From a virus, in the IMG/VR virus record IMGVR_UViG_3300006917_000048, positions 1-43,883 of that record: a DNA stretch of 43,883 bases. One strand, 5' to 3'. The position numbers were made by a program, and so were the translations under genes. Under the pieces are notes generated by a model, which had not been told where the DNA came from, ran no database searches, and saw only the letters and a program-made list of their open reading frames with translations. This document shows positions 25,634-34,166 of this stretch, in pieces. How positions within the stretch are numbered: the first letter of the stretch is position 1; every line of letters starts with the position of its first letter.

Positions 25634-26407
25634 TCAGCAGATCGGCCGCCAGCCGTATTCAGTGGAGGCAGGCAGGGCCAAGGGATGGCCGGCTTGATGC
25701 TGCAGACCCAGCTGGTGGGCAATTGCCCGGGTCGAGGCGCTGAGCACCGCATCACGCCAGAGGATCGCGGCTTCTTCGCGGCTCCTGGCGTAGACCACGA
25801 TGCCACCCCATGGCGCTACCCCCTGCGCTGCTGGGCTGAAGGCCTGATGCGGCTGCGGAGGAGCCTGCAAAGACTCCAGGAACCAGCCATCCATCCAGAC
25901 GGCGAACGCCGGGGAGATCCAACGGGCGAGGTCCACGGCGAGGCGGGGGTGGATCCAGGTGCCCTGCTGGTGGGGCAGCCCGCCCTGGCGCACGTCAACA
26001 AGGCCAGATCCCGTAGCCGGAAATCCGGCAACGGCTGCGCCGCAAGGCTTCTCAGTCGAAATACTGGCAGCCAGCGCGACGATGTATTCCTGGGTGCGCT
26101 CGTTGGCGAGGTAGTGGTTCAGCCGCTTGCCATTGGCCTGGCAGATCGCCGTGGCGTTGACGAACCCGTCGGCCTGCCGGCGCTCGATCGCGGTCCCGTT
26201 CCAGGTGCGGGCGTCGACGCCGAGCCCGCGACCGTCCAGCTGCTCCGGCGTGGTGGGCAGGCCCGCCAGGGGAGTGAGCTGGGTCTGGCGCTGGCGGTAG
26301 GCCTCTTGCTTGCATGCGCTGCTGCAGTAGAGGGCGTTGGAGCCGCGGGCGGCAAAGGACAGGCCGCAGGTGCTGCAGGTGAACTGATGGCGTTGTGTGC
26401 GCTTCAT
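25634..26407 (-). CDS. KilA-N domain protein with N-terminal zinc finger
   Basis: A protein of 257 residues. Residues 11-32 carry CSTC and CSSAC-type cysteines (C11, C14, C28, C32), a zinc finger. Residues about 64-178 are a KilA-N domain (IERRQADGFVNATAICQANG; GTWIHPRLAVDLARWISPAF; WMDGWF). KilA-N is a DNA-binding domain of phage antirepressors and of the P1 KilA toxin. The C-terminal 80 residues are not recognised. Overlaps the preceding gene by 4 bp. Confidence 0.85.
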   Translation of the reverse strand: MKRTQRHQFTCSTCGLSFAARGSNALYCSSACKQEAYRQRQTQLTPLAGLPTTPEQLDGRGLGVDARTWNGTAIERRQADGFVNATAICQANGKRLNHYLANERTQEYIVALAASISTEKPCGAAVAGFPATGSGLVDVRQGGLPHQQGTWIHPRLAVDLARWISPAFAVWMDGWFLESLQAPPQPHQAFSPAAQGVAPWGGIVVYARSREEAAILWRDAVLSASTRAIAHQLGLQHQAGHPLALPASTEYGWRPIC

Positions 26408-30630: not shown

Positions 30631-31101
30631 TCACTCCCCACTCTCCACTTGCACCCCAATGCCTTGCGCCTGGATCCCCAGCAGCAGGCGCATGCGCTGG
30701 TCGTCGCTGAGCCCCGCCCCATCGATGGCTGTGACCACGCCGGTCATCGCACGCTGCACGGCGCGACGTTCGGCGGCGGCGTCGCTGAACTGGTCACGGG
30801 TGATCGGGTGATGCGTCAGTAGCCAGGTAATGGCGTTCACGTTGCCGTTTTCCGCCTGACCATGAAGCGAGCTGAGGTATCGCTCTGCAATTTTTGAAGC
30901 CCCCTTATTGATGATGGCCCACAAACGACCTTCATCGGTTGATTCATCAGATTCGCGACCTTGCTTAATCCACCGCTTCCACGTGGTGATCGAAATCCCA
31001 AGGCGCGACGCCATGAGCTCGTGCGGGAGGCCGAGATCCGCCATCTCCCGGGCTTTGGCGATCAGCTCATCGGTGAGCAGGGATGGCCGACCACGAGACA
31101 C
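30631..31101 (-). CDS. Putative terminase small subunit
   Basis: A protein of 156 residues, MSRGRPSLLTDELIAKAREM, with an HTH (LPHELMASRLGISITTWKRW) and an oligomerisation-like middle with AITWLLTHHPITR. This is the usual layout of small terminases of the HTH type. It starts the long minus-strand operon, just downstream of a promoter with two TTGCGCAA operators and next to the GTTAC repeat region. Confidence 0.7.
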   Translation of the reverse strand: MSRGRPSLLTDELIAKAREMADLGLPHELMASRLGISITTWKRWIKQGRESDESTDEGRLWAIINKGASKIAERYLSSLHGQAENGNVNAITWLLTHHPITRDQFSDAAAERRAVQRAMTGVVTAIDGAGLSDDQRMRLLLGIQAQGIGVQVESGE

Positions 31102-31110
31102 AGGACAACA

Positions 31111-31160
31111 CGATGCGCAATGTCAACAGCTTAGCCGGGTTTGTGGCAGTTGCGCAAGCC
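31111..31160 (-). promoter_or_regulatory. Late-operon promoter with two TTGCGCAA operators
   Basis: Minus-strand TTGCGC (31156-31151), 18-bp spacer, TAAGCT (31132-31127), predicted start about 20 nt before the ATG at 31101. Operators: AGTTGCGCAAGCC over the -35 and ATGCGCAATG downstream of the -10. GGCTAAGCTGTTGA is identical to the early promoter at 34427. Confidence 0.65.
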
Positions 31161-31182
31161 CAAGGGCAAGCCACGGCAGGGC

Positions 31183-31439
31183 GTTACAAGCGAAACAGGC
31201 TGTAACACCAAGCGTAACGCCCGGATCCCTTGCGCTGCAGTGGATCTCCCCCTCTTGTTACCATGTTACATCTATAAAGAGAGAAATATATATATAGGGG
31301 GAAGGGGAAAACCGTTACTTCACGCGCGCGCACGCATATGGGTCTCCAAACCTGCGACCGTTACAAAAAGCGAAACAACCCAGTCCCTGCAAGGGATCTG
31401 GGCTGTTACCACCGGTTACCTTGTAACAAAAACCGTAAC
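31183..31439. repeat. GTTAC/GTAAC repeat cluster with AT-rich core
   Basis: Eleven copies: GTTAC at 31183, 31257, 31265, 31314, 31360, 31405, 31415 and GTAAC at 31202, 31214, 31423, 31435. Longer shared strings include GCGAAACA and GTAACGCC, each twice. An AT-rich stretch (31269-31296, ending in tatatata) lies in the middle. Candidate packaging site, replication origin or regulator-binding array. Region 31102-31442 has no gene. Confidence 0.65.
31379..31402 (-). terminator. Terminator after the primase-helicase gene
   Basis: Minus-strand CCCAG-A-TCCCT-TGC-AGGGA-CTGGG (bulged A), followed by TTGTTTCGCTTTTT. It stops primase transcription before the late promoter. Confidence 0.65.
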
Positions 31440-31442
31440 GCC

Positions 31443-34166
31443 TTATTCCCCGAAAACCCTGATGGAGACTGACCTACTCACCCCGGCGATGCCTTGAAAC
31501 CGGGTTGGCCCCGCTTTCTCTGCCCCATCCAATCGCCCCAGCACGGTGCTCCAGCTGGCGCCCCAGGGCGTGTCGCGCAGGATGCCGCGGACGCCCTCTG
31601 CAGTGTTGGAGACCAGCAAGCGGTCCCCGTCTACGCGGAACCCTAGCCGCCCCAGGTGGGCCACAGCAGCATCCGCCGGCACATCAGCCCGCTCATTGCC
31701 GTTGCGCACGGCTTCCGCGAGTTCCCAGACCGATCTGGTAATGATCGTGCTGCGTGCATTGACCCTGGCCCCATCGACCACGATGCGCTCGACCTCGACG
31801 CGGACCTGGTGCTGCAGCAGCTTCTGGAGGCACCGCTGCTCATCGGACTGCTCCGCAGCTTCCCGATACGGCTCCCAGTCCTGCTCATTGATGAGCTGGA
31901 GTGCTTCAGCTTCGCTCGGCACGCGATCATGCATCAAGCACCACGCGCCCGCCAGCAGGGTGCCGTACTGATCACCCTGTCGCTGGCTACCGAGCCGCTT
32001 GGCTGCTGCGGAGCGAAACACGGCGACCGCATCGCGCACCACGGGGATGAGCCGCACCATGCGGGCCGCCAGGGCGTGGCCGATGCCCGGGGTGATCTCA
32101 GCTGTCAGCCGCTGATCCAGATCCCGCCAGTGGGCTTCCCGCTGCCCTGGCGGGAGGGTGGAAGGGTTCCGCATGGTGAGCTGGGCGAACCGACTTTCGT
32201 CGGCGCCGTGCTTCAGGGCTGGGTTGATGGAACAGAGCAGGAACATCGAGCGCACCATGAACCGCTGCGCGATGCCATCGGCGCCGCCGCGCCCCACGAA
32301 CCCACGGCTGGAGCTGGAGCTGACGCGAGCTAGCGCCAGGATCGACTGCATCCGCGTCCGGTCGCTCTGCTCATTGGACTCGGCTTCATCCATCACCACG
32401 GGCAGGGCATCGCAGCGCAGTTCCTGCCGCAGGCTGGCCTCGGTGCTGCTGCCCTCGGGCCAGAGCGCCAGATCCTCCAGCAGGGTGCCCAGGAACCTGT
32501 CGAGGAGGGTGCTCTTGCCGCTCCCCTTCCCCGCGGTGAGCCACAGGTGCGGACGCCACATCAGCGCCCCGCCGATCGGTGCAAGTGCTGTCCAGCCCGC
32601 CAGGAGCAGGCCACTGGCCGGCACGTCCCAGAGGAACCCGCCAGCGATGGTGGTGATCTCTGCGCCTTGCTCGGAGCTGAGCGGCACCACGTCCGCCGGG
32701 AGCTCGATCGCTGCCAGCCGCTGATATTTGAACCGCGACCCTGGCAGCTGCAGGGGCTGCTCGACGCCATCGACCAGCAGCCGATCGCCCAGGTGAAGGA
32801 TCGACCGACCGTCGTCCCACCAGGCCCCGCGTCCGCGGATCCGCCCCGGGTCGAAGATGCCGACCTGATGCTGCAGGTGGTAGAGATGCGACGCGGCTTC
32901 GACGTAGTTGGGCCCCGATCGCCCACCCGGGAATACCGCCTCCCACCACTGCAGGGGCGCGAGCATGTTCAGGTGAGCGGCGTTGTGACTGGCAGCCGTG
33001 AGCCGCATCACCTGCCCGGTGTTGTGCGGCTGGTAGAAATACGACCCGTTGTCGAACCCCAGCAGGTCGAAGGGGTATCGGGGTTGCTCCGGTCGCCCCG
33101 GCTCGCTGGCGGTGGGCGCAGGGGGCTTCGGCGGCTCTGGCGCCCCACCGCTCAGCACAGGTTGCGCCAACCGCTCCAGCTCCGCCGCGGCACGCTCTAG
33201 GGTCCAGCCCATCGCAGCAGCATCGCCCAGATCCCATTTCGCGGGCACCCCCTCGGGAGGGGTGACCACCGCCACGGTGCAGCCCAGGCTCTGTAGGTGC
33301 TTCGCCAGCCAGGCCATCACCGCCCGGCCGTCGCGGTCGTTATCAGGCCACAGGGTGACGGTCCGGCCCGCCATCGGCTGCCAGTCCGTGTGTTGCTTCC
33401 CCTCTTTCCCGTGGCACCAGCTGACCACCACATGGTCGGGAAAGAGCAGGGCAGCCCGGTTGGCAGTGCGCTCCCCCTCGACCATCAACACCGGAGCATC
33501 GGGTGCCGCCAGGAGCTGGGGCAGCCGGTAGATGGGCCGGGGCGCCGGCCACTCACTGGTGAAGTCGTCGCGCTTGCTGGGCCTGTGCCAGCGGCCATCG
33601 AGCCAGGTGCGGTGAATGAACACCTTGTCGGGCTTCCCCCCGGCCACCTTCGGCGGACGCGGGATCCGCTGGATCCAGAAATCAGGGTTTTCCAGATCGG
33701 CCCCATAGGGGTACTGCTCCTCAGCTCCCCCCAGCTCTGGCGGCGGAGTGCCCGCAGGTGGCGCCGTCGGGATGCGCGCGGGCTTGCGGCTGCGCTTGGC
33801 GGGAGCTGGAGCGCTGGGCCCTGGTGTCACCGGCCGAGCCGTGGTCACCAGCCCGCAGTAGGCCTCAGCTTTGGCCGCCGCCTGGGGGAACTCACAGCCC
33901 AGCATCCGCATGAGCAGATCAGCCCCGTTGCCGCCGCCACCAGAGCCGCGCTTGCCGCCGCACTGGTTGCAGTACCAGGCGCCCATGCCGTCGCTCTGAT
34001 CCCAGCGGAACCGATCGACGTTGCGGCCCTGCCCCTGGGCGATGCCGTTGCGTTCGCAGGCGGGGCATGCCTGCGCCTGGCCGTTGAAGACATGCGGCGG
34101 CAGGCCCGCCAGGGCGCTGAGGATCTCCGGCCATCGTCCGGCCGTGATCCGCTCCAGATTGCCCAC
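31443..34166 (-). CDS. Primase-helicase
   Basis: A protein of 907 residues. Zinc-binding primase head with C34, C37, C66, C69. TOPRIM-like nucleotidyl domain with E230 (APVLMVEGERTANRA) and D275/D277/D279 (LWPDNDRDG). Helicase with Walker A AGKGSGKS (545-552), Walker B PVVMDEAE (589-596) and a sensor-like FLLCSINPA. The fold order is that of phage/plasmid primase-helicases such as P4 alpha-like proteins with DUF927-type helicase parts. It would load at the phage origin, unwind and prime. It is transcribed away from the other replication genes. Confidence 0.85.
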   Translation of the reverse strand: MGNLERITAGRWPEILSALAGLPPHVFNGQAQACPACERNGIAQGQGRNVDRFRWDQSDGMGAWYCNQCGGKRGSGGGGNGADLLMRMLGCEFPQAAAKAEAYCGLVTTARPVTPGPSAPAPAKRSRKPARIPTAPPAGTPPPELGGAEEQYPYGADLENPDFWIQRIPRPPKVAGGKPDKVFIHRTWLDGRWHRPSKRDDFTSEWPAPRPIYRLPQLLAAPDAPVLMVEGERTANRAALLFPDHVVVSWCHGKEGKQHTDWQPMAGRTVTLWPDNDRDGRAVMAWLAKHLQSLGCTVAVVTPPEGVPAKWDLGDAAAMGWTLERAAAELERLAQPVLSGGAPEPPKPPAPTASEPGRPEQPRYPFDLLGFDNGSYFYQPHNTGQVMRLTAASHNAAHLNMLAPLQWWEAVFPGGRSGPNYVEAASHLYHLQHQVGIFDPGRIRGRGAWWDDGRSILHLGDRLLVDGVEQPLQLPGSRFKYQRLAAIELPADVVPLSSEQGAEITTIAGGFLWDVPASGLLLAGWTALAPIGGALMWRPHLWLTAGKGSGKSTLLDRFLGTLLEDLALWPEGSSTEASLRQELRCDALPVVMDEAESNEQSDRTRMQSILALARVSSSSSRGFVGRGGADGIAQRFMVRSMFLLCSINPALKHGADESRFAQLTMRNPSTLPPGQREAHWRDLDQRLTAEITPGIGHALAARMVRLIPVVRDAVAVFRSAAAKRLGSQRQGDQYGTLLAGAWCLMHDRVPSEAEALQLINEQDWEPYREAAEQSDEQRCLQKLLQHQVRVEVERIVVDGARVNARSTIITRSVWELAEAVRNGNERADVPADAAVAHLGRLGFRVDGDRLLVSNTAEGVRGILRDTPWGASWSTVLGRLDGAEKAGPTRFQGIAGVSRSVSIRVFGE

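Follow-up and report, generated by a model that had tools for sequence, protein, structure and literature searches.

A heptamer iteron array next to a phage primase-helicase gene is a probable replication origin whose repeats vary with the primase C-terminus

The window, meaning the whole 43,883-bp IMG/VR virus record analysed here (which may be incomplete), contains a single dense cluster of GTTAC repeats, located between a primase-helicase gene and a small-terminase-like gene. What such a cluster does, and which protein reads it, is the question raised by this locus. With a probability of roughly 0.86, we consider that it is a replication origin, and that the C-terminus of the adjacent primase-helicase would bind and read its iterons and open its core. 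The sequence-derived support comes from the array itself, its conserved layout, its adjacency to the primase gene, the covariation between residues and bases and the concerted switching of sites, from which we infer physical binding, assembly on each half of the array, strand opening and the start of replication at this place.

A sequence-only reading of this DNA had reported 11 GTTAC/GTAAC sites in 257 bp, and we recovered exactly that number at 31183-31439. The same 11 sites in the intergenic region 31102-31442 compare with a mean of 0.95 and a maximum of 5 in 2000 dinucleotide-preserving shuffles, and the commonest pentamer there, whatever its sequence, occurs 11 times versus 4.3 (1000 shuffles, maximum 8). 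GTTAC/GTAAC is also the densest pentamer pair per 257 bp across the 43.9-kb record, the next one reaching 10. The AT-rich core described in that reading was confirmed, with 27.5% GC at 31260-31299 against about 63% for the genome, and so were the longer shared strings. Comparison with L019 (relatives are cited by locus number), whose primase is 86% identical to that of the window and whose array has 13 clean sites, showed that two of these strings, AAGCGAAACA, contain degenerate copies of a heptamer. Since the two positions missing with respect to L019 are degenerate TGTTTCG copies, the array of the window is made up of 13 heptamers at 31182-31440 (11 GTTAC/GTAAC sites and two TGTTTCG variants), beginning 2 bp past the stop codon of the primase-helicase gene. 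Two other elements that had been proposed, a primase terminator and a late promoter, were both absent from a sigma-70 and terminator consensus scan of 30900-31600. An Rfam search of the array region gave no match. Cumulative GC skew, which had been suggested as a check, was calculated for the window and for Synechococcus phage S-H1; it showed no clear change of direction at the array and is uninformative here. The features of the array are as follows (where no strand is given, the feature has none).

31182..31440: iteron array, proposed replication origin; two halves with 13 heptamers around an AT-rich core; L019 (13 clean sites) and many relatives share the layout
31434..31440, minus strand: site 1, CGTTACG, 2 bp from the primase stop codon
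31422..31428, minus strand: site 2, TGTTACA
31414..31420, plus strand: site 3, GGTTACC, inverted relative to the primase
31404..31410, plus strand: site 4, TGTTACC, inverted
31379..31402: imperfect inverted repeat CCCAGTCCCTgcaaGGGATCTGGG between the outer and inner sites; relatives have a similar sequence at the same place
31371..31377, minus strand: site 5, TGTTTCG, degenerate (TGTTACG in L019)
31359..31365, minus strand: site 6, TGTAACG; with site 5, makes up the inner direct pair that flanks the core on one side
31313..31319, plus strand: site 7, single site within the core region
31271..31312: AT-rich core with ATATATATATA, candidate strand-opening element; most relatives have a low-GC core at the same place
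31264..31270, plus strand: site 8, TGTTACA, part of the inner inverted pair, across the core from sites 5 and 6
31256..31262, plus strand: site 9, TGTTACC, inner inverted pair
31213..31219, minus strand: site 10, CGTTACG
31201..31207, minus strand: site 11, TGTTACA
31191..31197, minus strand: site 12, TGTTTCG, degenerate (TGTTACC in L019)
31182..31188, minus strand: site 13, TGTAACG, the final site

Among the proteins that the sequence-only reading had named for binding assays, the primase-helicase is the best candidate binder. It matches phrog_35358 (E 1e-124), and the domains found in the aligned primase homologs were Zn_Ribbon_Prim (40/40), Toprim_3 (22/40) and AAA_16 (17/40). Three features of its gene are relevant here.

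31443..34166, minus strand: primase-helicase, 907 aa, proposed initiator, with Zn-ribbon, Toprim-like, P-loop ATPase and C-terminal domains
31446..31700, minus strand: C-terminal domain, residues 823-907, proposed origin-binding domain (last 160 aa modelled, mean pLDDT 92)
31485..31508, minus strand: residues 887-894 (PTRFQGIA), proposed base-reading hairpin, holding the top mutual-information columns for iteron bases 1, 2, 4 and 5

The model of the full-length protein (mean pLDDT 81) matched SCCmec Cch (5dgk, 5e-7), SaPI PriRep1 (7pds, 1e-5) and poxvirus D5/E5 helicases (about 2e-5) in Foldseek searches, with NrS-1 also among the matches. These results suggest an initiator-helicase fold of the D5/Cch-like AAA+ type, an assignment of moderate confidence because the pTM of the full model is 0.48. 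In the model of the C-terminal 160 aa, the last element is a hairpin whose two strands span 883-889 and 896-903; the first strand finishes with residues 887-889, and the turn consists of residues 890-895. This segment alone had no PDB match by fold or profile search, hence the label of winged helix is not supported by these searches. A search of a viral library with the C-terminal domain found only two convincing homologs, S-CAM8 G8EY43 and H9C0J7. The domain was found in no phage record beyond the primase homologs, nor on any other protein (for instance, an origin-directed nuclease) in all the loci fetched. One named-phage row was left out of the structure-model alignments. Elsewhere in the window, a KilA-N domain protein is encoded at 25634-26407, within the structural-gene region.

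Relatives were collected with the primase protein and comprised viral contigs, bacterial genome contigs (many of them from Cyanobium/Synechococcus) and Synechococcus phage S-H1. For the bacterial genome contigs, a single-sequence query found no relatives, while an alignment query found 64. Defining an iteron-like array as at least six sites, we detected one after the primase in 158 of 183 regions, versus 24 of 549 regions of 400 bp picked at random from the same loci. The core pentamer proper to each locus had a median density of 28.6 per kb after the primase and 0.8 per kb elsewhere. Past the primase stop codon, the outer sites come first, and then two or three direct repeats, 8-9 bp apart. 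The core that follows measures about 90-110 bp and is usually GC-poor; beyond it are two inverted sites, with the same 8-9 bp spacing, and, after about 44 bp, three to four further sites. This layout was seen, for example, in L019, L008, L011, L013, L022 and L128, and also in the distant L357 and in Bdellovibrio phage phi1422, with 12 GTTACC sites. Distant homologs in PBb002, Dolphis, ZRG1, MQ-4, Touem01 and Mwe-JY13 had no array within 400 bp downstream. The GTTACC array of phi1422 (L372), just past the primase, is unannotated and likely an origin, as are the unannotated GTTACA-type repeats located upstream of the primase in Acinetobacter phage Acjo_20 (L373). The cores of many relatives (for example L013 and L021) contain long alternating purine-pyrimidine runs, GTGCGCGTGTGTGTG, that could favour non-B DNA. 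Loci L304-L342 are Cyanobium/Synechococcus genome loci with this primase, possibly prophages or satellites, and many of them have weaker arrays with mixtures of TGTAACG and TGTGACG and the tail RFCGAG.

The letters of the heptamer vary wholesale among the relatives. Most carry TGTTACG or TGTAACG; the others are TGTCCCG (L013, L014, L017 and L021), TGTTCCG (L009, L015 and L056), TGTACCG (L007 and L059), TGTTGCG (L083), TCTTACG (L005, L108 and L122), TCTCACG (L063, L086 and their relatives), TCTAACR (L092 and L239) and CCTAACG (S-H1 and its relatives). In S-H1 (MK105819), a phage of Synechococcus sp. WH 7803, the candidate origin is at about 17.7 kb. The type of repeat follows the last 20 or so residues of the primase. 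We assigned the motifs from DNA alone with a loose heptamer grammar and compared them with every column of the primase alignment in 119 dereplicated loci. Mutual information was highest at R889 for bases 1 and 2, at A894 for base 4 and at P887 for base 5, the lead over other columns being narrower for bases 4 and 5 than for base 2. Where residue 889 is R, base 2 is G in 81 loci and C in four, and base 2 is C in 14/14 loci with Y, 11/11 with W and six of seven with H (G in the other). Base 5 is C in all 10 loci with K887 and in only one of the 109 without it. Among the natural variants, the window and L019 carry R889, L005 H889, L063 Y889 and S-H1 W889, and L013 has both K887 and R889. Three of the four exceptions with R and C (L070, L317 and L331) have low-complexity or ambiguous motif calls, and the fourth (L363) is only distantly homologous and has another repeat; L212, with H889 and GTTAC sites, is a genuine exception.

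To take descent into account we used a FastTree phylogeny of primase residues 201-840, which excludes the tail and has some long branches. Base 2 and the class of residue 889 each change 11 times on it, and independent pairs changed in the same direction 7.2 times versus 0.0 on average (median p 0.016). For K887 and base 5, five pairs agreed, none was opposite and one had no difference; five informative pairs are too few for the base-5 rule to be significant on its own. The association of residues with bases persists when the distal half of the array is used alone. The clearest case is the comparison of L019 with L005, two loci with closely related primases in which L005 carries H889 in place of R889. 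Base 2 differs at 11 of the 13 aligned sites, ten of the changes being G to C, whereas the remaining 52 core bases are all unchanged and 56 of 313 positions outside differ (Fisher 8e-7 and 9e-11). Altogether, the covariation suggests a readable code between the primase tail and the repeats of the origin.

Two groups of arrays depart from these letters. Base 3 is G (TGGAACG, TGGGACG) in L322, L323, L324 and L336, which have the tails GAGSKARAC or GAGAKDRAC, a possible further position of the code. The arrays of L057 and L070 are made up of TGTCTAC/TGTAGAC, near-palindromic and outside the TGTnnCG register despite the presence of R889.

An origin could, however, be read by another factor of the phage or the host, with the link between tail and iteron reflecting linked inheritance. 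Tail and array lie only about 60-300 bp apart, and this physical linkage makes their joint transfer by recombination a possible confounder of the association. Nevertheless, joint transfer is unlikely to be the whole explanation, since identical pairings are found with several different tails and the changes between L005 and L019 are point changes, one base per site, in arrays with spacers that can still be aligned. H889 is found with C at base 2 in the distinct tails THFRGIAG, VHFRGLGSS, VVHFAGIG and THFRGLTSS, and the same is true for Y889 in IYFKGAG, VIYFKGSG, EPIYFGAH and KPVYFKGAG. We therefore regard a different reader as improbable.

Packaging is a still weaker candidate, and we consider it very unlikely that the array is a pac/cos site read by the small-terminase-like protein encoded at 30631-31101. 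It is common for TerS proteins to bind repeats close to the gene that encodes them; the array is directly upstream of this terminase-like gene, whose product has weak matches to terminase small subunits (phrog_309 and phrog_4102). However, L003 has an array with 97% identity (256/264) but a terminase whose DNA-binding part has only 29% identity (31/106), and in other relatives (L128, L338, L077, L088 and L017) the next gene codes for a DNA clamp, a methylase, a PD-(D/E)XK-like nuclease, an RHH protein or a tail-like protein. A packaging site is disfavoured because the array is kept with a divergent terminase and next to different downstream genes, and because the repeat type follows the tail of the primase. 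Of the three options that the sequence-only reading had left side by side, the evidence strongly favours the iteron-type origin and speaks against the pac/cos site. The terminase-like genes of the window and L003 (8656-9114) seem to have undergone a domain swap, confined to the N-terminal part, since their C-termini are 94% identical and the two phages are otherwise near-identical. The last option, an operator array through which a phage regulator would control the downstream gene, fits the presence of short sites, in either orientation, ahead of a gene, but is the least credible, since the array stays with the primase while the downstream gene varies, the consensus scan found no sigma-70-type promoter and the covariation is with the primase; as a secondary role, regulation is possible though not needed.

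Under the reading that we favour, the primase-helicase would bind the heptamers through its C-terminal domain, with residues 887-894 of the beta-hairpin at the extreme C-terminus reading the bases. Residue 889 would read base 2 of the TGTnnCG-type heptamer (R for G; H, Y or W for C), residue 887 would read base 5 (K for C), and the turn after F890 may contribute to base 4. The two-sided layout around the AT-rich core suggests two protein assemblies, one per half of the array, and bidirectional opening. These assemblies would open the core, which is flanked by the two inner pairs, one direct and one inverted, load the helicase ring and prime.

As an origin, the array is not categorically new, because origins of this architecture are already known. 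SaPI Rep and SCCmec Cch2 use their C-terminal domain to recognise several short iterons that lie immediately past the initiator's own gene (PMC7581432). The window has the same arrangement of a short iteron array directly downstream of the proposed initiator gene, and the full-length fold matches both systems (5dgk and 7pds); binding by the C-terminal domain is proposed here from covariation. Unlike them, the protein has a DnaG-like Zn-ribbon/Toprim primase fused to the helicase and a C-terminal domain for which fold and profile searches of the PDB gave no homologous DNA-binding domain, the heptamers have other sequences and the hosts are mainly cyanobacterial.

P4 alpha joins a Toprim-type primase, a helicase and a C-terminal origin-binding domain that acts on repeats, and P4 replication needs two separate regions, ori and crr. 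The fusion of a Zn-ribbon and Toprim primase to a helicase is shared with our protein, but the window has one compact array and, in a record that may be incomplete, no second crr-like cluster. The C-terminal domain had no sequence match to a P4 origin-binding structure. P4 alpha has been compared to ORF904 of the archaeal plasmid pRN1, a primase-helicase that has a C-terminal DNA-binding domain and an origin directly downstream of its gene (PMC4234260). The pRN1 origin is nevertheless a 100-nt stem-loop without iterons and its primase is archaeo-eukaryotic, in contrast to the iterons and Toprim-type primase described here.

A correspondence between residues and iterons is known for geminivirus Rep. 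In these viruses even closely related members have different iterons near rep, which their own Rep recognises (PMC12548392), although this is a rolling-circle protein, unrelated to ours, of plant ssDNA viruses, and the likeness is one of analogy only. Concerning what drives the switches, the origin-directed nuclease Odn of ICP1 and the RepA of PLE illustrate one selective force able to switch origin repeats and initiator domains (PMC8263062), even if PLE combines a RepA_N initiator with iterons of about 30 bp and the phage array is made up of heptamers. By analogy, origin-directed nucleases or satellites are a plausible driver here. We consider it evenly balanced whether the C-terminus holds a compact, near-modular code by which lineages have repeatedly reprogrammed their whole origin, through small changes in the tail and stepwise conversion of a dozen or so iterons, probably under pressure from satellites, origin-directed nucleases or replicon incompatibility.

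In the literature that could be searched we found no description of a residue-iteron correspondence in this primase-helicase family, and the widespread occurrence of such arrays beside it, the wholesale switching of repeats and the residue-base correspondence appear to be undescribed. The origins of such phages are rarely located, and here they become predictable from sequence in more than 100 genomes, with a named candidate binder, while the correspondence is a proposal that a simple binding assay could confirm or kill. The relatives also provide a natural series of switches in origin specificity, including the pair with one base changed at 11 of 13 sites, for asking how the specificity of an essential protein-DNA pair can shift while its function is kept. 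Finally, in L082 the 350 bp past the primase stop codon combine a near half with TCTCACG, like L072, and a far half with TGTAACG that, together with the downstream gene, resembles L088; recombination within the AT-rich core could explain this, as could an assembly chimera.
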